From Ohtaekwangia koreensis (GTDB lineage Bacteria; Bacteroidota; Bacteroidia; Cytophagales; Cyclobacteriaceae): DNA of 64,000 nucleotides. Location of the stretch: NCBI RefSeq assembly GCF_900167975.1, contig NZ_FUZU01000003.1, positions 930,001-994,000 of the forward strand, in the 5' to 3' direction. This document shows, in pieces, positions 17,512 to 33,043 of this stretch (positions are counted from its first letter, which is position 1; each line of letters opens with the position of its first letter). Under the pieces are notes generated by a model. The model ran no database searches. It was not told the DNA's origin and saw only the letters and a program-made list of their open reading frames with translations. The translations under genes were made by a program, and so were the position numbers.

Positions 17512-18255
17512 ATGCGCGCTGAAAGTAATCTTACCACTTCGTACGATCAGCAGGTTCAGAAAGAACTTTCGCAGTGGCAAAAGCGCATGCAAAAAAAACC
17601 TTCTTTCCTGAACAGGTTCTCCAAGACCACACAGGAACGGATCAATCGCATCATTCCTGAAAAAATACATGGAACCATTACTACCGCGATCAAACAAATG
17701 ACACGCGCGCTGATTTTTGGTATTGGTATAACTTCGAGTAAACCTTTGGTTCTCGCCACACTACAAGAACGGGAAGCAGCTGTATTGGAAACGATTCGCA
17801 AACATCGGAATACGGCTACTGCTGAAGGCGCTATTACCGGTGCCGGAGGACTGCTACTCGGACTAGCAGACTTTCCAATCTGGCTTACTATCAAAATGAA
17901 AATGCTGTTTGACATCGCAGCACTATATGGCGTTGATGTAAAGGATTACAAAGAACGTATATATCTGCTTCATATTTTTCAGCTTACGTTTTCCAGTCAA
18001 CAACACCGTAACAGAATCTATACTACAATAGCAAATTGGGAAAAAGAAAAACTTCTCTTGCCAAACGATACTAATCAATTTGACTGGCGCAGCTTTCAAC
18101 AAGAGTATCGTGACTATATTGACATTGCTAAACTTCTACAACTCGTGCCTGGCATTGGCGCGGTGGTAGGAGCATACGTTAATCACAGGCTCACGGCCAA
18201 GCTGGGCAAATATGCGATGAATGCTTTTCGGATGAGGATGATTCCTTCTCTATAA
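17512..18255 (+). CDS. EcsC family protein
   Basis: A 247-residue protein of the EcsC family, whose molecular function is not settled. It shows the basic N-terminus, a central glycine/alanine-rich hydrophobic segment (AEGAITGAGGLLLGLADFP, about 102-120) and a second one (LVPGIGAVVGAYVNHRLTAKLG, about 205-226), with an HRNRIYTTIANWEKEK linker. The segments could associate with the membrane. There is no signal peptide. It lies 179 bp after the GH106 stop and just upstream of the two-component pair; the first TTCAGAAT tandem box begins 9 bp after its stop. Confidence 0.8.
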   Translation: MRAESNLTTSYDQQVQKELSQWQKRMQKKPSFLNRFSKTTQERINRIIPEKIHGTITTAIKQMTRALIFGIGITSSKPLVLATLQEREAAVLETIRKHRNTATAEGAITGAGGLLLGLADFPIWLTIKMKMLFDIAALYGVDVKDYKERIYLLHIFQLTFSSQQHRNRIYTTIANWEKEKLLLPNDTNQFDWRSFQQEYRDYIDIAKLLQLVPGIGAVVGAYVNHRLTAKLGKYAMNAFRMRMIPSL

Positions 18256-18263
18256 ATATCCAG

Positions 18264-18282
18264 TTCAGGATTTATTCAGAAT
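18264..18282 (+). promoter_or_regulatory. Tandem 11-bp-phased box 1 (TTCAGGAT-N3-TTCAGAAT)
   Basis: Direct repeats at 18264-18271 and 18275-18282, one helical turn apart, as is typical for OmpR/PhoB-type regulators. It lies 111 bp upstream of the response-regulator gene. A single further copy of ATTCAGAAT sits at 18383-18391, 1 nt short of the start codon. Confidence 0.6.
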
Positions 18283-18392
18283 CCTTGTTGAATTTTACTC
18301 CTGTTCCAGAATACAAGACGTGACCGTTAAACTACTGGATTCCAAACACGCTTTATGGTATATTTCCAGCGGATATTACGCTATTCAGAATT

Positions 18393-19067
18393 ATGAAAGT
18401 GCTTATTGTTGAAGATGAAATTGAGCTTGCTCAAAGCATGGCCAAGTTTTTGGGTTCTGAATCTTTCATATGTGAACAGGCCCATTATTACGATACAGCA
18501 CTTGATAAAATTACGGTTCACGATTACGATTGTATCTTATTGGATATTTCTTTGCCTGACGGAAACGGTCTTCTGCTTCTGGAGAAATTAAAAGCTCTCA
18601 AGAAAAATAACGGAGTAATTATTGTCTCTGCTAAAAATTCCATCGATGACAAAATCAATGGCCTGAACCTGGGAGCTGACGACTACCTGGCAAAGCCGTT
18701 TCACATGGCAGAACTTGCTGCACGGGTACAAGCCGTTGTACGAAGAAGATTATTCAACGGTCGCGATATACTTGAATTCAATGAGATAAAAATCGATACT
18801 GCGGCCATGGCGGTCACGATATCGGAGAAAGCAGTACCCCTCACACGAAAAGAGTATGAACTGCTGATATTCCTGCTGTCCAATAAAAATAAAGTCATCT
18901 CCAAAAATGCTATAGCGGAGCATTTAACCGGAGATATAGCAGAAGTAATGGATAACTTTGACTTTATATACGCGCACATAAAAAATCTAAAAAAGAAATT
19001 AGCCGATGCCGGGTGTCCGGATTATATTAAAACGATCTACGGACTAGGATATAAATTTACCACATGA
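18393..19067 (+). CDS. OmpR-family response regulator
   Basis: A 224-residue two-component regulator. The receiver domain (1-118) has the acidic pocket VEDE (6-9), phosphoacceptor Asp51 in ILLDISLPDG, a Ser in VSAKN and Lys in LAKPF. The C-terminal winged helix (about 125-224) includes LTRKEYELLIFLLSNKN and ends IYGLGYKF, as in OmpR/PhoB. Its stop overlaps the kinase start by 4 nt (ATGA), so the two are coupled. The tandem TTCAG boxes around this operon are its likely DNA sites, suggesting autoregulation and control of the LTA-synthase-like gene. Confidence 0.92.
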   Translation: MKVLIVEDEIELAQSMAKFLGSESFICEQAHYYDTALDKITVHDYDCILLDISLPDGNGLLLLEKLKALKKNNGVIIVSAKNSIDDKINGLNLGADDYLAKPFHMAELAARVQAVVRRRLFNGRDILEFNEIKIDTAAMAVTISEKAVPLTRKEYELLIFLLSNKNKVISKNAIAEHLTGDIAEVMDNFDFIYAHIKNLKKKLADAGCPDYIKTIYGLGYKFTT

Positions 19068-20332
19068 GGTTACTAAATGTAAATCTGAGAAGTTTCCTAT
19101 ATTATTCATTATTACTGGTACTTATCGGAGTGCCCTTATTCTTCATCACCATTCGGGAAATCCTCGAACAAGAGATCGATAAAACACTGCATCTTCAACG
19201 CGAAGAGTTCATCAACCACTTACGCAACTATGAATATTTGGAAGACCTTGAAGTGGATCTCCACGTCTTTGATGAACTTGCATATGACATCAGCATTCAA
19301 CCGGCATCGTCCGGCAGTAAAGATGAATTCTATGAAACCACTTCCCTTTATGATAGCATCGATCGTGAGGCAAAACCCTATCGCGTAGCAACTTCTTACT
19401 TTATTGTTAAAGGTAAGTGGTATAAACTCATCATGCGCATGTCGCTTGTAGAAAGCGAAGATCTGGTTTTGGTGATTGGCCTCGTTCAAACTTTGTTAGT
19501 CTTATTTTTGCTCGGTGGTTTCTTATTGATCAACCGCTCGCTGTCCAAAAAAATCTGGCAACCATTTTATAAAACACTTACCAAACTAAAAGCATATGAA
19601 CTGAATAAATCTGAATCGTTTCAATATGAAGAAACGCGAATCGATGAGTTCGATGATCTGAATGCCGCCATACGTTCACTTACTAATAAGAACATGGAAG
19701 TATTTCAGCAGCAAAAAGAATTTATTGAGAATGCATCACACGAACTGCAAACACCACTCGCCATTTTACAATCCAAGCTTGACTTGTTGATGCAAGATGA
19801 AGCATTAACTGAAGAACAAGCTGCATTGGTAAAAGACATGACCAATACAAACCAACGTCTCTCTAAATTAAACAAGAGCTTGCTGCTGCTTTCCAAAATA
19901 GAAAACCAACAGTTCATTGATAAAGAAGACGTTGATATAACGCAGATACTGCGTGATACAATTTTGAATTACCAGGAACTCACAGCAACCACAGCTCCGA
20001 ATATTTTAACGACTTCACCATTTATACTTCAGGGAAACAAAGTACTTTTGGAAATCCTGGTCAACAACCTCGTACTAAATGCATTTCAGCATACAACACA
20101 TCACGACCAAATTAAAATCAAGCTACAAGATGGAATTCTCACCATCGAAAATCCGGGAGAACCCTTTAAGCAAGGCTCAGAAAAAATATTTGAAAGATTT
20201 CATAAAGAAAGCACCAACCGCTCCAGCACGGGCCTTGGATTGGCAATTGTAAAAAAAATATGCGACCTCTCGGGGTATAATCTTACATATGCATATCAAT
20301 CGGGGGCGCACTATTTTAGAGTAAAATTCTGA
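19064..20332 (+). CDS. Sensor histidine kinase partner of the OmpR-type regulator
   Basis: A 422-residue membrane kinase: helix 1 (about 11-28), an acidic periplasmic sensor domain (about 29-135), helix 2 (about 138-160), then HisKA with the phospho-His motif ENASHELQTPLAILQSK (about 223-240) and an HATPase domain with NNLVLNAFQH, ENPGEPF and TGLGLAIVKKIC. No HAMP is obvious, though the KAYELNKSE linker is in its place. Overlap with the regulator gene makes the pair certain. The signal is unknown. The genes under the shared box motif point to envelope lipid or polymer stress. Confidence 0.9.
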   Translation: MRLLNVNLRSFLYYSLLLVLIGVPLFFITIREILEQEIDKTLHLQREEFINHLRNYEYLEDLEVDLHVFDELAYDISIQPASSGSKDEFYETTSLYDSIDREAKPYRVATSYFIVKGKWYKLIMRMSLVESEDLVLVIGLVQTLLVLFLLGGFLLINRSLSKKIWQPFYKTLTKLKAYELNKSESFQYEETRIDEFDDLNAAIRSLTNKNMEVFQQQKEFIENASHELQTPLAILQSKLDLLMQDEALTEEQAALVKDMTNTNQRLSKLNKSLLLLSKIENQQFIDKEDVDITQILRDTILNYQELTATTAPNILTTSPFILQGNKVLLEILVNNLVLNAFQHTTHHDQIKIKLQDGILTIENPGEPFKQGSEKIFERFHKESTNRSSTGLGLAIVKKICDLSGYNLTYAYQSGAHYFRVKF

Positions 20333-20351
20333 TTCAGAATTTCTTCAGAAT
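20333..20351 (+). promoter_or_regulatory. Tandem 11-bp-phased box 2 (TTCAGAAT-N3-TTCAGAAT)
   Basis: Two identical octamers at 20333-20340 and 20344-20351, starting at the base after the kinase gene's stop codon. This is the most perfect of the three copies. It is 217 bp upstream of the LTA-synthase-like gene and may act as a distal site with box 3. Confidence 0.6.
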
Positions 20352-20512
20352 TATTACAAGTCTTTTTTCTTAAAGTCTTTAGCCCTTAATGGTGTATATT
20401 CATTTAAAATATACCCGCTAAAAATCGGTAACAACTTACATAACTATAGTATTCCACATATTATACTCCCGTTACAAGATAAATATATAGCATTGCCATA
20501 GTAAAATAAACG

Positions 20513-20531
20513 TTCAGATTAAATTCAGAAT
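20513..20531 (+). promoter_or_regulatory. Tandem 11-bp-phased box 3 (TTCAGATT-N3-TTCAGAAT)
   Basis: Octamers at 20513-20520 and 20524-20531, 37 bp upstream of the LTA-synthase-like start. A weak -7-like TAGGTTGA follows at 20534-20541, so the box would sit where the -33 region normally is, the position expected for an activator. Confidence 0.6.
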
Positions 20532-20567
20532 CTATAGGTTGATTTGCAGGGTAAATACTTCTGATCA

Positions 20568-22505
20568 ATGTCTACCAAAAAATCAATCGCTGCCTTTCTG
20601 CAACGATTCACCAAAAGCCGGTTCAGCAACCTTCTTCTTCTTATCGGATTGCTCGTCAGCATTTCAATGATCACACGCGTAGTGTTCCTGATCCAATCAA
20701 TCCAGGGAGTTGATATAACAATCCTCAATATAGCAGGCATCTTTATACTGGGACTTTTTTACGACCTTATCAACGCAAGTTATTTCATTATACCCTTATT
20801 GTTCTATATATGGATCACGCCACAACGTATATATTCAAAAGCGTGGAGTAAATATATACTTTACGGATTCTTCTCTCTATTAACATTTATTCTCTTGTTC
20901 AATGCAGTTGCAGAGTGGTTCTTTTGGGATGAGTTCGGTGCGCGCTACAACTTTATAGCGGTAGATTACCTGGTTTATACCAATGAAGTATTAGGGAATA
21001 TTAAAGAATCCTATCCGGTTGCCTGGATTGTCGCTGGTGTTATTACGCTCTGTCTTCTTCTTCAATACGCATTACGAAACCGGATCAGAACTACCGATAC
21101 GTTGCCTATGAGCTTGAAAAAAAGAAGCAGCATTGCTCTTGTATTCATTCTCCTGCCTATAACTTTCTTTTTTACCGTAACAAACCGCGGCCATCATTTT
21201 AGCAGCAACGCGTATGTAAATGAACTTGCAGCGAACGGTATGTATGAACTCTTTGCTGCTTACCGAAACAATGAACTTAACTACGAACAGTTTTATAAAA
21301 AAATACCGAATGAAGAATCATTTATAGAAGTAAAAAAACTTATTCATACAGCAGAGTCACAATATATATCGAATGAAAAGCACGATCTCACTCGTAAAGT
21401 AACACATAGCGGGAAGGAAAAAAGGCTCAACGTGGTATTGATCTCGGTAGAAAGTCTGAGCGCAGATTTTATGAGCACCTTCGGAAGCACAAAAGGGATT
21501 ACACCTTTTCTGGATTCATTGGCTACACAAAGTCTGTTATTCACAAAGGTATATGCCACCGGCACGCGCACCGTTCGCGGCCTCGAAGCATTATCGCTGT
21601 GTGTACCACCTACACCGGGCCAGTCCATTGTAAGAAGACCACACAACGAGCACATGTCATCGTTGGGAAAAATCTTCGAGCAAAAAGGTTATGAAAGCAA
21701 ATTCATCTATGGAGGCTACGGCTATTTTGACAATATGGGCTACTTCTTTGCAAACAATAGTTATAGTGTCGTTGACCGTAATGAATTGAAGGATGAAGAA
21801 ATTGACTATGAAAATATATGGGGTGTTGCTGACGAAAATCTTTTTACACTTACGCAACACGAAATAGAAAAAACCATCGCCGCTGGCAAACCTGTATTTG
21901 CTCATGTCATGACAACGTCTAATCATCGCCCGTATACATATCCCGAGGGACGCATCAATATACCCTCGCATACATGCCGGGAAGGTGCAGTGAAATATAC
22001 CGACTATGCAATTGGCAAATTCATCAAATCTTGCAGCCATAAAAGCTGGTTTGCCAATACAGTCTTTGTGATCATCGCAGACCACTGCGCGTCCAGTGCC
22101 GGGAAATCAGAATTACCAATTCAGAAATATCATATACCATTATTAATCTATTCACCATCAAATATACCGGCATCACATATGGACAGACTTATGAGCCAGA
22201 TCGACCTGGGCCCTACCCTGCTTGGCTTGCTGAACTTTTCGTATACCAGTAAATTTTATGGTTACGATATATTTGCGCTGGAACCGGGACGCGAACGGAT
22301 CTTCATCAGCACGTATCAGAGTCTTGGGTATGTACGCGACAATAAACTGATCGTACTATCTCCTCAACAGAAAGAGCAAACCTTCCTGGTAAATTTCAAA
22401 ACTAATTCACTTAGTCCAATAGCCAATGACAGTAAACTGACCCGTGAGGCAATTTCATGGTATCAATCGGCAAGTTATGCGTTCCGCAAAGGACTTATGC
22501 ATTAG
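20568..22505 (+). CDS. LTA-synthase-family membrane phosphotransferase
   Basis: A 645-residue protein with about five N-terminal helices (20-210) and an extracytoplasmic sulfatase-fold domain. Metal/catalytic positions visible: Glu295 in VVLISVESLSADF, Thr335 in GTRTVRGLEALSL, and the distal metal motif FVIIADHCA. The family transfers phosphoglycerol or phosphoethanolamine from phospholipid headgroups to an acceptor; in Gram-negative Bacteroidota the acceptor is unclear. It is monocistronic or leads into the two PAP2 genes (60 bp and 252 bp gaps). Boxes 2 and 3 upstream suggest control by the neighbouring two-component system. Confidence 0.88.
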   Translation: MSTKKSIAAFLQRFTKSRFSNLLLLIGLLVSISMITRVVFLIQSIQGVDITILNIAGIFILGLFYDLINASYFIIPLLFYIWITPQRIYSKAWSKYILYGFFSLLTFILLFNAVAEWFFWDEFGARYNFIAVDYLVYTNEVLGNIKESYPVAWIVAGVITLCLLLQYALRNRIRTTDTLPMSLKKRSSIALVFILLPITFFFTVTNRGHHFSSNAYVNELAANGMYELFAAYRNNELNYEQFYKKIPNEESFIEVKKLIHTAESQYISNEKHDLTRKVTHSGKEKRLNVVLISVESLSADFMSTFGSTKGITPFLDSLATQSLLFTKVYATGTRTVRGLEALSLCVPPTPGQSIVRRPHNEHMSSLGKIFEQKGYESKFIYGGYGYFDNMGYFFANNSYSVVDRNELKDEEIDYENIWGVADENLFTLTQHEIEKTIAAGKPVFAHVMTTSNHRPYTYPEGRINIPSHTCREGAVKYTDYAIGKFIKSCSHKSWFANTVFVIIADHCASSAGKSELPIQKYHIPLLIYSPSNIPASHMDRLMSQIDLGPTLLGLLNFSYTSKFYGYDIFALEPGRERIFISTYQSLGYVRDNKLIVLSPQQKEQTFLVNFKTNSLSPIANDSKLTREAISWYQSASYAFRKGLMH

Positions 22506-22565: not shown

Positions 22566-23330
22566 ATGAAATATGGTATCCTGATCGTTCTTCTCTTGCG
22601 TATCTCGCTATGCTTTGGTCAATACAATCTGCGAAGCAAGAACTATACGTCCATCAACCTTACTTTACAGAAAGAACCAATACATAAAAAAAACGTATGG
22701 CTGCAGGCAACATATGTACCACTCACGCTTGTGGCACTGGGTGCTTTAAGTACACAGAACAATAACATCATCGACCGGCACGAGATCCGTGAAGAGAGAA
22801 ATGAATATACACCAACCTTTCACCACAAGGCCGATAATTATTTACAGTTTGCTCCTATACTGGCAGTATATGGTTTGAATGCTGTTGGTATAAAAGGGAA
22901 AAATACCATGGCAAACCGCACAGCCATTTTAATAAAAGCAGAATTGATCATGACAGCTTTAACATTTTCATTAAAGAAGATAACAGCAGTGCCCAGACCC
23001 GATACTGGTCATCCTACATCATTTCCGTCCGGGCATACGGCACAAGCATTTGCTGCAGCAACCTTTATGGCAAAGGAGTATGGTGACCAAAGTATATGGT
23101 ACCCCATCGGGGCGTATACCGTTGCTACAGGTATCGGTGCTATGCGGATCTTGAACAATCGCCATTGGATATCCGATGTGCTGGCCGGAGCCGGGATTGG
23201 TATATTGGCTACCAACATCGCGTACCTTACACATGGCTATAAATGGGGAAGCAAGAGAAAAAATACAATGATTGTGCCTTCGTATAGCGGATCTGCAGCA
23301 GGATTATATATCCGCTACCAGTTCCGGTAG
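22566..23330 (+). CDS. PAP2-family phosphatase, first tandem copy
   Basis: A 254-residue exported or membrane phosphatase. It has a signal peptide (1-19, ending CFGQ) and the three PAP2 motifs: KKITAVPRP (motif 1), FPSGHTAQAF (motif 2) and RILNNRHWISDVLAG (motif 3), with the catalytic His in place. PAP2 enzymes remove phosphate from lipids such as undecaprenyl pyrophosphate, phosphatidate or lipid A. It has few transmembrane helices, closer to the periplasmic/outer-membrane type. The downstream gene at 23583 is a close paralogue of the same length. Location after an LTA-synthase-like gene suggests recycling or trimming of the lipid by-products. Confidence 0.87.
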   Translation: MKYGILIVLLLRISLCFGQYNLRSKNYTSINLTLQKEPIHKKNVWLQATYVPLTLVALGALSTQNNNIIDRHEIREERNEYTPTFHHKADNYLQFAPILAVYGLNAVGIKGKNTMANRTAILIKAELIMTALTFSLKKITAVPRPDTGHPTSFPSGHTAQAFAAATFMAKEYGDQSIWYPIGAYTVATGIGAMRILNNRHWISDVLAGAGIGILATNIAYLTHGYKWGSKRKNTMIVPSYSGSAAGLYIRYQFR

Positions 23331-23537
23331 GTATAAACACTGAATACCCCATCCACAGTGAGCGTTGTGGCAGGTAAAAAATTGGGGCAATTTGGCCTGT
23401 TCTTTGCTTTTATGCGAAGCAAAAAGATTCAAAAATCTGCATTTTGGACAAGCTAATGCATACTATAATTCCTTTTTGGAAGTTATGATGCATGTACTTT
23501 TCAGATTTAGTTTTCCCTTTTTCAATTAACAAATGAT

Positions 23538-23561
23538 GCGTATCTTGATACCTTGATACGC
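23538..23561 (+). promoter_or_regulatory. Hairpin GCGTATC/GATACGC in the 5' region of the second PAP2 gene
   Basis: A 7-bp stem with a 10-nt loop that contains a third GATAC, so it can re-pair. It lies 21 bp before the ATG at 23583 and would be in the leader. The rest of the 252-bp gap (23331-23582) holds only a weak TTTGCTT/AAGCAAA hairpin at 23403-23423 and a single TTCAGATT at 23500-23507. Confidence 0.3.
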
Positions 23562-23582
23562 CCGGGAATCAGCGACAGCATT

Positions 23583-24350
23583 ATGAAATTTCAACCTCTA
23601 GCCTTATTTGTAAGTATTTGTCTTACTTTCCAAGTATGCAGTGCCCAGATTAATCAGCAGAAACGCAGCTATGATGATGCGAACCTGGGTCTTCCCGATC
23701 AAAAACTCAAACGGAAAAACAGTCTTTTCCACGCGGTAAAGGTTCCGGTGACACTCATCGCGCTGGGTATATATGCAACGGCCGACCACAAGGTTATTAA
23801 TCGATACGAGATTCGTGAAGAACGCAATGAGTACATGCCGAACTTCCGCAGCAGCGTTGATAATTACCTGATGCATGTACCGGTATTGGCAGTATATGGA
23901 TTAAACATGGCGGGTGTAAAAGGCAAACATGATTTCAGAAACCGCTCGCTGTTATTGATGAAATCTGAAATGATTATGGCGGCAATGGTATTCTCTGTAA
24001 AACAATTTACACAGGTTACGCGCCCGGATGATAGTAATAACTACTCATTCCCTTCCGGACATACTGCACAAGCTTTTGCTACGGCAACGTTTATGTCTAA
24101 AGAATATGGCGACCAAAGTATATGGTATAGCGTAGGAGCTTACGGCATGGCCACTACAGTTGGCGTTATGCGCGTTCTTAACAACCGCCACTGGATCTCC
24201 GATGTGCTGGCTGGAGCTGGTATCGGTATTCTTTCCACCAATCTCGCATACCTTACCCATCGGTATAAATGGAAGAATAAAAACAGTGATCTGACCATCA
24301 TTCCGATGTATACTAATGGCCCTGGAATATATCTGGGATATACTTTATAA
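23583..24350 (+). CDS. PAP2-family phosphatase, second tandem copy
   Basis: A 255-residue paralogue of the preceding gene, with signal peptide MKFQPLALFVSICLTFQVCS, motif 1 KQFTQVTRPDD, motif 2 FPSGHTAQAF and motif 3 RVLNNRHWISDVLAG. Both share the signature YEIREERNEY/HEIREERNEY and the C-terminal AGAGIGIL...LAYLTH segment, so they arose by duplication. I use ATG 23583; an in-frame TTG at 23553 would put ten polar residues before the signal sequence. It is separated from its twin by 252 bp, so it may have its own promoter and a different expression pattern. Confidence 0.87.
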   Translation: MKFQPLALFVSICLTFQVCSAQINQQKRSYDDANLGLPDQKLKRKNSLFHAVKVPVTLIALGIYATADHKVINRYEIREERNEYMPNFRSSVDNYLMHVPVLAVYGLNMAGVKGKHDFRNRSLLLMKSEMIMAAMVFSVKQFTQVTRPDDSNNYSFPSGHTAQAFATATFMSKEYGDQSIWYSVGAYGMATTVGVMRVLNNRHWISDVLAGAGIGILSTNLAYLTHRYKWKNKNSDLTIIPMYTNGPGIYLGYTL

Positions 24351-30613: not shown

Positions 30614-33043
30614 ATGAAGCATACGATAGCCGAATCACTAAAGAAAATTTTACCAGCAACACTCTTGTTCGCGGTGGTATCTGTATTCATCCGGCTATAT
30701 GAATATATTGTTGTAACCAGCAACTATAGTACCCTCAACGTGGCAGCCTTTGAACTGCGCGGTATAGGTTATGATGTAATTGTATCGCTTTCTTTTGCTT
30801 CCGTTGTCATGCTTGTGCATCTCATGCTTTCACTCTGGTCGCTTCGTATAGCGTACGTGGTGAGTTCCGTTTTGTTTACAGGACTTGTGATACTATCGTT
30901 TTGCATCACGCATTACTTTACCGTGACGCTGTTCCCGTTGAGCACTGATCTATATGGATACTCACTCCGAGATATTGCCACAACGATACGCTCTTCGGGA
31001 GGAACAAGTGTAAGCGCCCTGATTACCTTTATCCTTATACTCACAGGCTTTATAGCAGCACTGTACTGGATTTACCATGCAAATTTTCTTCAAGGTATAT
31101 CAGCTTTTGCGGCGTTATGCTCGCTCGTGATTTTCATTTCGTTGATTCTTCCACACCATGCAGCGCCCGAGAATTTTGATCGGGATATAGATTACTATTT
31201 AGCCGTTAACAAAACCTGGTATTTCACTGATCGAACAAAAGACTATATCCGCGACAAATTTATACAAGAGAATTTTGATCCGAATGCATATCCGTTTCTA
31301 CACCGCGTTGAGTATACCGATAGCCTGGGCCAATATTTTCATAAAGCACCAGAACCGCCTTCCATAGTAATGATTATCGTGGAAGGCCTTGGTCGCGATT
31401 TTACCGGACCGCAGGCACCCTATGGCGGCTTCACACCTTTCCTCGATTCACTGTCACAACGGAGCCTCTACTGGGAGAATGCTGTCAGCAACGCTGGTCG
31501 TACATTTGGTGCACTGCCGAGTATACTCGGGTCGCTGCCTTATGGGAGCGAAGGGTTTATGGGCTATGGCGCTTCTCTACCAGATCATCAAACTTTGGTG
31601 AGCCTTCTTAAACCCCACGGCTATAGATCCAGTTTTTTTTATGGTGGTTCCGCACATTTTGATAACCAGGATATCTTCCTGGAATATCAGGGCATAGATC
31701 GGTTTATAGATGAAAGTAAATTCCCGGCATCGTATCGACAGACGACACATGTATCATCGTGGGGGTTTGCGGATGATGAAGTCTTTACCTTTGCTGCACA
31801 GGAACTAAAGCAAGAAAAGGCTCCGCGATTGGATATATACCTCACACTTACAACGCATGAACCCTTTATTTCTCCGAATCCGAAATTTGATACCCTGCTC
31901 TCCAGGCATCTTGAGAATCTTTCCTCCCCAATCTTAAAAAAGGAAGTGCAGGAGAATAAAGGAATCTTCTCGTGCCTGCTATATACCGATAATGCGATAC
32001 GAAATCTGTTTCGGCACTATCAGTCGCGTGCCGACTTCAGTAATACTATATTCATTGTAACGGGTGATCACCGGCTTATTCCCATGGCACCTGGTAATAA
32101 GATTAAACGTTTTCATATTCCGCTCATTGTATACTCGCCACTTCTCAAGCAAGAAAAAAAATTTGCTTCACTCGCGGTCCATTCGAATATCACGCCAACC
32201 TTGTTAAACTACCTTGCTGCAAATTATAACTTTGATTTTCCTGACGAAATGCCTTTTATTTCCGGGCCTTTGCACTTTGATTCTACATTCTCCAGTAATC
32301 TGGACGTTGCACTCACCCGAAGTAAAAATGAAATACGCGATTATGTAGACGGTGAATATTTCTTGTCCGATGACAGACTATATAAGATTTTACCAGGGCT
32401 GAACCTGGAACCGATTCAGAATGAGACAATCAAAAAGAACGTGATTGAAAAACTGAAACGTTTTAAAGCTAAAAATACATTTGCGTGCGACCACAACAGG
32501 GTTGATAAACGCTCTGCTCCAAAACTTGTGTTGTTCACTTTTTCAGCAAGTGAGCAACAAATACTGGATGATTTGAAAATCGAGTCACTGGATGTTGATC
32601 AGCAATTTATAAAAGCACGGGATGTTGCATTTGAAAAACAATATCTTCAGAGCCGTACCATCCTGAAATATCTCCTGAATAAAAATCCGAATTACCACGA
32701 TGCGCGCATCTTACTGGCCAGAACCTATGCCTGGGATGCACGCTACGATAGCGCCATGCTATATATACAGCAGGCACTACAACGCAGTCCGTATTATGCA
32801 GATGCATATGTAGCCTGGGGCGACCTTGAATATTGGCAAGGGCATCATCAGCAATCTGCACACGCCATCAAAAAAGGTCTGAGTATTGACAGCAGCAATA
32901 TAGACCTGCGTGCACGCCATGCGCGTGTGCTGATACTGGAGGGAAAAAATAAAGACGCGGAAAAAATACTGCTCGAGGTATTAGCAAAAGATCCCAACCA
33001 GGAGATTGCAAAGGACTTGATTCGTAAACTAAAAAAAGAATAG
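30614..33043 (+). CDS. Sulfatase-fold membrane phosphotransferase with C-terminal TPR domain
   Basis: An 809-residue protein: five N-terminal helices (about 10-175), an extracytoplasmic LTA-synthase/sulfatase-type catalytic domain with Glu257 (IVEGLGRDF), Thr297 (NAGRTFGALPS) and the metal motif FIVTGDHRL, then three or so TPRs (about 670-809). The TPR part resembles the TPR part of the next gene (shared LARTYAWD). I start at ATG 30614; a longer TTG reading from 30575 would overlap the GT2 gene by 35 nt. The family transfers phosphoglycerol or phosphoethanolamine, so this may decorate the polymer made by the GT2. A TPR fusion is not usual for LtaS-type enzymes. Confidence 0.85.
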   Translation: MKHTIAESLKKILPATLLFAVVSVFIRLYEYIVVTSNYSTLNVAAFELRGIGYDVIVSLSFASVVMLVHLMLSLWSLRIAYVVSSVLFTGLVILSFCITHYFTVTLFPLSTDLYGYSLRDIATTIRSSGGTSVSALITFILILTGFIAALYWIYHANFLQGISAFAALCSLVIFISLILPHHAAPENFDRDIDYYLAVNKTWYFTDRTKDYIRDKFIQENFDPNAYPFLHRVEYTDSLGQYFHKAPEPPSIVMIIVEGLGRDFTGPQAPYGGFTPFLDSLSQRSLYWENAVSNAGRTFGALPSILGSLPYGSEGFMGYGASLPDHQTLVSLLKPHGYRSSFFYGGSAHFDNQDIFLEYQGIDRFIDESKFPASYRQTTHVSSWGFADDEVFTFAAQELKQEKAPRLDIYLTLTTHEPFISPNPKFDTLLSRHLENLSSPILKKEVQENKGIFSCLLYTDNAIRNLFRHYQSRADFSNTIFIVTGDHRLIPMAPGNKIKRFHIPLIVYSPLLKQEKKFASLAVHSNITPTLLNYLAANYNFDFPDEMPFISGPLHFDSTFSSNLDVALTRSKNEIRDYVDGEYFLSDDRLYKILPGLNLEPIQNETIKKNVIEKLKRFKAKNTFACDHNRVDKRSAPKLVLFTFSASEQQILDDLKIESLDVDQQFIKARDVAFEKQYLQSRTILKYLLNKNPNYHDARILLARTYAWDARYDSAMLYIQQALQRSPYYADAYVAWGDLEYWQGHHQQSAHAIKKGLSIDSSNIDLRARHARVLILEGKNKDAEKILLEVLAKDPNQEIAKDLIRKLKKE

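Follow-up and report, generated by a model that had tools for sequence, protein, structure and literature searches.

A tandem box of 11-bp period as the proposed operator of an OmpR/PhoB-type envelope regulon in Ohtaekwangia koreensis and other Bacteroidota

Introduction

Which protein reads a short tandem repeat that stands three times around a two-component operon and a lipoteichoic acid (LTA)-synthase-like gene in Ohtaekwangia koreensis (Bacteroidota; Cytophagales; Cyclobacteriaceae), and which genes does it control? The repeats, called boxes here, lie in a stretch of 64,000 nucleotides (contig NZ_FUZU01000003.1, positions 930,001 to 994,000), which is referred to as the window. The boxes are probably operators of the adjacent OmpR/PhoB-type response regulator and would drive its own operon together with an envelope regulon, a reading to which a probability of about 0.86 is given from the sequence comparisons described below. 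Bacteroidota sigma-A promoters are unlike those of Proteobacteria, and to our knowledge few two-component operator codes have been described in this phylum. A published description of the box or of the regulon was not found among the papers listed in searches of the openly licensed PubMed Central (PMC) literature, subscription papers being mostly outside that scope, and the papers listed for the DNA words of the box are unrelated by their titles.

Tandem boxes in the window and in the genome

The window consensus of the box is TTCAGNNT-N3-TTCAGAAT, a direct repeat with an 11-bp period, and the half-sites start 11 bp apart in all three copies (18264/18275, 20333/20344, and 20513/20524). An earlier note on this DNA, made from the sequence alone, had reported three such repeats with exactly this spacing, in a form unique in the window and placed around the regulator/kinase genes and the LTA-synthase-like gene. 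The window scan confirmed all three repeats and their exact spacing and found no further tandem at up to two mismatches, and the gene context proved to be as described according to domain annotation. Box 1 lies between the EcsC gene and the response regulator gene, and 36 bp separate the end of box 3 from the LTA-synthase-like gene.

Under a third-order Markov model of the window, 0.0022 exact tandems are expected in the window itself and 0.25 in the whole genome (7.24 Mb), against 3 and 5 observed, respectively, so that three of the five copies in the genome are those of the window. The looser counts are less distinctive: dinucleotide shuffles of the window gave a mean of 0.97 tandems at up to two mismatches and reached three in 8 of 100 shuffles, and the count of three alone is therefore unremarkable at that looseness. 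At the same threshold, 160 matches were found in the genome compared with 31 for the reversed control, but the window shuffle mean, scaled to the genome, gives a chance estimate of ∼110, and most of the 160 are consequently noise. The single half-site TTCAGAAT occurs 12 times in the window (4.9 expected). Nine genome matches differ from the box at one position; as read by eye, two of these are promoter-like (L009 and L010), six fall within coding frames on either strand (L006, L007, L008, L011, L013, and L014), and one (L012) overlaps an antisense frame.

Conservation across Bacteroidota and within the family

A kinase homology search provided 80 named Bacteroidota loci, the best 80 of at least 591 stretches from at least 543 relatives, and a box was counted where TTCARAAT-N3-TTCARAAT matched at 14 or more of 16 positions within 150 bp. 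In the 74 loci used for the positional count (six with a response regulator match that began beyond residue 5 were dropped), the box was present upstream of the response regulator gene in 40 and after the kinase gene in 37, compared with 33 of 6388 background windows, which corresponds to 50–54% at the operon against a background rate of 0.5%. Other periods from 8 to 15 were found in at most 3 loci of 74. Sixty shuffled motifs gave means of 1.1 (upstream of the regulator) and 1.0 (after the kinase) of 74; one permutation, with scores of 34 and 23, amounts to a one-base shift of the motif and is an unfair control, and the next best permutations listed reached at most 7 and at most 9, respectively. 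The box was found on at least one side of the operon in 57/80 loci, and by class, as assigned from record titles, in Cytophagia (10/17), Chitinophagia (12/15), Sphingobacteriia (2/6), Flavobacteriia (21/24), Bacteroidales (3/6), and the 12 metagenome-assembled genomes without class (9/12).

A motif-free test, in which a near-identical 8-mer repeated at a given distance was sought in all 80 loci, gave period 11 in 44/80 upstream of the response regulator (other periods 3 to 9) and in 29/80 after the kinase (other periods 1 to 15), compared with 2/80 in the control inside the response regulator gene (other periods 1 to 14). The words TTCTAAAT and TTCAAAAT were the commonest; two one-base shifts of these came next, and TTCAGAAT was fifth. 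Direct repeats with a period of ∼11 bp, the form expected of OmpR/PhoB operators, are present at this operon.

Within the family, kinase homologues (E ≤ 1e-60) were detected in 57/196 genomes and response regulator homologues (E ≤ 1e-66) in 158/295. The box in the interval between the EcsC gene and the response regulator gene is kept in the sibling genomes G177, G197, and G213. Among 27 family loci selected as good kinase matches, a box was read by eye at the operon in 19, an LTA-synthase homologue occurs at the operon in 9 (7 upstream of the response regulator and 2 after the kinase), and a PAP2 homologue lies within the retrieved stretch in 6.

Promoter geometry and the sign of regulation

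The sigma-A -7 element of Bacteroidota has the consensus TAnnTTTG (extract of PMC9723704). At the exact sites and at the two promoter-like sites with one mismatch, 7 bp separate the second half-site from a word that roughly agrees with TAnnTTTG. A composite of the box, 7 bp, and the -7 element matched at 8 places in the own genome when up to three mismatches were allowed and at no place in reversed form, a test that is circular in part since some of these sites had served to define the pattern; eight relatives provide the better test and gave 22 matches against 1 for the reversed pattern. In the named loci, the distance from the box to the start of TTTG is exactly 11 nt at 27/40 post-kinase sites, the fixed operator place of class II activation, and this placement is weaker upstream of the response regulator.

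Within the window, the place of the box relative to the -7 element is clear at box 3, imperfect at box 1, and poor at box 2, and the element of box 3 is kept in the siblings G197 and G213, which carry TTGATTTG at the identical distance. The gap between the kinase and LTA-synthase-like genes spans ∼235 bp with two boxes in the O. koreensis genome and in the nearly identical sibling G177, and ∼60 bp with one box in G197 and G213. The two-box gap (20333-20546) likely arose by local duplication or insertion. Box 2 occupies the old, conserved place but its -7 element is poor, whereas that of box 3 is good; box 2 could be a relic or an additional binding site.

The response regulator might also bind the boxes and act as a repressor, with its dimer over the -33 region blocking RNA polymerase and producing negative autoregulation; judged by geometry, a box that overlaps the promoter fits either sign. 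Activation of the PhoB or PmrA type needs a fixed distance between a box at -33 and the -7 element, whereas a repressor needs none, and the box does stand in the -33 place at a fixed distance in the 27 post-kinase sites, which makes repression unlikely.

In a separate observation, the -7 element ends a few bases before the response regulator start codon in loci L105, L106, L107, L110, L151, L154, L173, and L212, which suggests that the mRNA is leaderless or nearly so in these loci.

The regulator that reads the box

The exact composite pattern had 48 matches in 39 of the 295 family genomes, against one match when reversed. The response regulator (E ≤ 1e-66) is present in 35/39 pattern-bearing genomes compared with 158/295 overall (Fisher p 3e-7, with the genomes treated as independent though they are not), and at least 18 of the 48 pattern places lie within 10 kb of a response regulator place (150 such places compared). 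Thirty loci were retrieved by the pattern, some from the same genomes as the 27 kinase-chosen loci; a homologue of the response regulator, kinase, LTA-synthase-like, or PAP2 gene was found within ∼1.5 kb in 16, and any proposed target, in a wider target set, near the pattern in 22. The response regulator is missing at this threshold in four pattern-bearing genomes (G147, G148, G214, and G282); G148 nonetheless has a response regulator of 48% identity and the kinase beside the site (L137), and the loci of G282 and G214 (L112 and L113) show none of the targets nearby.

Across the named loci, the occurrence of the box varies with the identity of the adjacent response regulator to that of the window (≥60%, 4/6; 55–60%, 36/40; 52–55%, 13/21; 50–52%, 2/5; <50%, 2/8). 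Two of its residues, 194 and 195, which we take to lie in the recognition helix from the position of that helix in the family, go with the box: A194 is kept in 50/57 box-bearing and 6/23 box-less loci, and H195 in 56/57 and 17/23, respectively, both comparisons being correlative and uncorrected for kinship.

These relationships bear on the possibility that an unlinked regulator, such as PorX/SigP or a paralogous OmpR-type protein, reads the boxes and acts above the operon. The kinase does belong to the PorY family, and a PorX-like open reading frame (ORF) with a receiver and a PglZ domain occurs elsewhere in the genome. However, the box marks the regulator/kinase operon across much of the phylum, becomes rarer as the adjacent response regulator diverges, and tracks its recognition-helix residues, and the word downstream resembles the sigma-A consensus and not the CGT box of extracytoplasmic function (ECF) sigma factors (extract of PMC9723704), so that an unlinked reader appears quite unlikely. 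That the boxes arose by chance, or that they are a promoter element common in Bacteroidota with no relation to the response regulator, is scarcely credible even though the half-site TTCAGAAT is not rare and loose genome matches are common, and is already contradicted by the family pattern scan, the named-locus count, and the motif-free test, given the exact tandems (3 against 0.002 expected), the reversed controls (0 against 8, 1 against 48, and 1 against 22), the background windows (0.5% against 50–54%), and the prominence of period 11.

Genes of the locus and comparison with known systems

The operon combines a regulator of the OmpR/PhoB type, with REC and winged-helix Trans_reg_C domains, and an adjacent HisKA/HATPase_c kinase (Table 1). 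The closest Protein Data Bank (PDB) sequences of the response regulator are 1kgs, followed by BasR/PmrA (8jo2 and 4s04), and its scores fall below the curated cut-offs for PmrA (NF007928, 153.2 bits against 330) and for PhoB (TIGR02154, 150.5 against 296.2; NF053854, Bacteroidota PhoB, 148.8 against 270). The kinase passes the PorY-family model NF052314, which is a subfamily-level model, with 448.8 bits (cut-off 350). The LTA-synthase-like transferase resembles LtaS, OpgB, and EptA in its sulfatase-family domain and in its alignment to LtaS 2w5q and VP1736 3lxq (the best PDB sequence is 3lxq, followed by the LtaS-type chains 2w8d and 2w5q), and differs from LtaS and OpgB in scoring below the curated equivalog cut-offs (NF053595, LtaS, 55.8 bits against 970; NF009027, OpgB/phosphoglycerol transferase I, 68.3 bits against 572); its membrane anchor was read by eye from the sequence.

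Table 1. Positions of the boxes, -7 elements, and genes considered; positions refer to the window unless another locus is given.
Feature	Position	Strand	Remark
EcsC gene	17512-18255		
Tandem box 1, TTCAGGATTTATTCAGAAT (TTCAGGAT-N3-TTCAGAAT)	18264-18282	+	Putative promoter of the regulator/kinase operon
Imperfect -7 element, GAATTTTA	18290-18297	+	7 bp after box 1
OmpR/PhoB-type response regulator, proposed binder	18393-19067	+	Response_reg and Trans_reg_C
Sensor histidine kinase, PorY family	19064-20332	+	NCBIfam NF052314
Tandem box 2, TTCAGAATTTCTTCAGAAT	20333-20351	+	Abuts the kinase stop codon; conserved position behind the kinase gene
Weak -7 element, AGTCTTTT	20359-20366	+	Belongs to box 2
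Tandem box 3, TTCAGATTAAATTCAGAAT	20513-20531	+	Putative promoter of the LTA-synthase-like gene
-7 element, TTGATTTG	20539-20546	+	7 bp after box 3
LTA-synthase/OpgB-like membrane sulfatase-family transferase, proposed target	20568-22505	+	Sulfatase-family domain
PAP2-family phosphatase	22566-23330	+	Domain and NCBIfam search
Second PAP2-family phosphatase	23586-24350	+	Start chosen at an ATG within the ORF given as beginning at 23553
PorX-like ORF, 519 amino acids	G000:C3:484173-484745; L242:1204-2763	-	Receiver (by eye) and PglZ

The first PAP2 gene has no box of its own at up to two mismatches and is probably co-transcribed with the LTA-synthase-like gene. The two tandem PAP2 genes (22566-24350) are mutual paralogues with 54–57% identity, as compared through the sibling locus L080. 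Another LTA-synthase/sulfatase-like frame lies at 31358-32239 on the forward strand, in an open frame of 826 amino acids with 29% identity to the gene at 20568, and no tandem box was found near it at up to two mismatches.

One of the closest known systems is PmrA/BasR-PmrB of Enterobacteria, the response regulator of which is of the OmpR type and among the closest by sequence. PmrA regulates itself, and its box consists of CTTAAT-like repeats. EptA and other lipid A head-group transferases are under PmrA control (extract of PMC2904496). The present system differs from that of PmrA in its box, in its PorY-like kinase, in having an LtaS/OpgB-like enzyme in place of EptA, and in its CzcA and DUF3570-ApbE targets. 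In PhoB-PhoR, two head-to-tail half-sites with an 11-bp period replace the -35 element upstream of the -10 element; these pho boxes are like the present boxes in their head-to-tail half-sites, period, and -35 place and unlike them in the half-site itself, and no phosphate-uptake genes were seen among the targets. The regulon is of a known kind and would work like PhoB or PmrA, and it is assigned to neither because the response regulator scores below both curated cut-offs.

PorX-PorY-SigP, which acts in type IX secretion of Porphyromonas gingivalis, shares with the present system a PorY-family kinase and a PorX-like ORF in the genome. In P. gingivalis, the partner of PorY (PGN_2001) is PorX (PGN_1019), which is distant by locus number (extract of PMC4800418). 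In O. koreensis, by contrast, the kinase gene overlaps an OmpR-type regulator gene, so that the adjacent partner is of the OmpR type, and the PorX-like ORF is unlinked to the kinase. An OmpR-family regulator of Flavobacterium johnsoniae (FJOH_RS14175) was mutated in one coevolved isolate (extract of PMC10197871).

Predicted targets

In the own genome, boxes accompany the regulator/kinase operon and the LTA-synthase-like gene with the two PAP2 genes behind it, and three further box-bearing units were found outside the window. The box at C4:703799 precedes genes for a small exported protein, a CusA/CzcA-family resistance-nodulation-division (RND) pump, a TolC-like ORF (identified by eye), and a CusB-type adaptor; that at C5:1070701 precedes a DUF3570-thioredoxin-ApbE-DUF4266 operon (thioredoxin identified by eye); and that at C4:825296 precedes an outer-membrane barrel of the OMP_b-brl_3 type. 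The same associations recur in other genomes, with a box before DUF3570 in L118, L123, L235, and L238, before the CzcA operon in L120, L121, L222, L228, and L234, and before the barrel in L114, L115, L135-L137, L139, and L141. Among 20 new loci from the eight relatives, a queried homologue was found in 15 and none in 5. The proposed regulon is wider than the earlier note had it, with the CzcA-type metal efflux operon and the DUF3570/ApbE operon also bearing the box. The small exported protein ahead of the CzcA operon (L101:3844-4218) has positional homologues elsewhere with 25–40% identity, and no Pfam match was found for it.

Across the phylum, box-bearing genes encode PepSY-like secreted proteins, Omp85-family proteins, PAP2 phosphatases, and TauE- and DUF347-type membrane proteins. 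Of the 80 named loci, 11 have an LTA-synthase homologue and 18 a PAP2 homologue within the retrieved stretch, and these partners are common, not universal. At the Epilithonimonas locus L155, the box is followed by a DagK gene and then by an LTA-synthase homologue. Enzymes of the LtaS and EptA types release diacylglycerol, and DagK is a diacylglycerol recycler; its presence in a box operon is the main reason to suppose that the group transferred by the LTA-synthase-like enzyme is a phospholipid head group, which would be passed onto an envelope acceptor.

Discussion

The earlier note had proposed a self-regulated envelope regulon, and the present comparisons support this proposal, as the box recurs at the orthologous operon across much of the phylum, is commoner in genomes that hold the response regulator, stands before envelope genes in other species, and, at most sites after the kinase gene, lies at a constant distance from the -7 element. 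From the sites, their period and spacing, their conservation, the co-occurrence with the response regulator, and the shared targets, we infer binding, activation, and phosphorylation.

A number of observations weigh against the boxes being operators of the adjacent response regulator. The promoter evidence is uneven, since the -7 elements of boxes 1 and 2 are flawed and the offset is looser upstream of the response regulator, where TTTG starts at +12 in 8/40 and at +11 in 1/40 sites. Two of the eight composite matches in the own genome (C2:152443 and C3:71208) lack a plausible downstream gene and were for that reason removed from the target list. The operon box is absent in 8/27 family loci (L082, L084, L091, L094, L096, L099, L108, and L109, of which the L091 stretch starts only ∼40 bp before the response regulator, at a contig end), and 23/80 named loci have no box at 14/16. 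The exact composite occurs in just 39/295 family genomes while the response regulator occurs in 158, and 8/30 pattern-retrieved loci show none of the targets. Within the genus, G127, with a response regulator of 60% identity, has no composite match, and G074 has two composite matches without a known target. Among the named loci, those with a response regulator at least 60% identical do not lead in box frequency (4/6). Finally, the exact composite pattern and the TTCARAAT consensus were built after the relatives had been seen and some of these were counted again, a bias that the motif-free period test of the 80 named loci was run to remove.

If the boxes are operators of the adjacent response regulator, as we consider probable, the PorY-family kinase would phosphorylate this regulator, and a dimer would bind the two half-sites head to tail, one helical turn apart. 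The dimer would lie over the -33 region, 7–8 bp upstream of the sigma-A TAnnTTTG -7 element, and would activate transcription as a class II activator in the manner of PhoB or PmrA. Acting on its own operon, the response regulator would generate positive feedback, and it would further drive the LTA-synthase-like transferase and the PAP2 phosphatases in the window and, elsewhere in the genome, the CzcA-type efflux operon, the DUF3570-thioredoxin-ApbE-DUF4266 operon, and the outer-membrane barrel. DagK, as at the Epilithonimonas locus, would recycle the diacylglycerol released by the transferase. The mix of targets hints that the signal is perhaps a divalent metal or another cationic envelope stress.

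A wider interpretation, put forward tentatively and at somewhat less than even odds, is that of an ancient OmpR-type regulon of Bacteroidota, in which a TTC(A/T)(A/G)AAT-N3 tandem box placed 7–8 bp from TAnnTTTG links PorY-family kinases to head-group transfer (LtaS-like enzymes, DagK, and PAP2), CzcA-type efflux, and ApbE-linked outer-membrane genes; on this view, PorY-PorX of P. gingivalis would be an offshoot, with a kinase that has lost the partner it originally had. If this interpretation is true, the box would allow the regulon to be listed in any Bacteroidota genome. A box with a fixed promoter offset, found from Cytophagia to Flavobacteriia, is a ready predictor for a regulon and offers a testable function for the LTA-synthase-like genes of Gram-negative bacteria, and it raises the question of whether kinases of the PorY family generally act through PorX.

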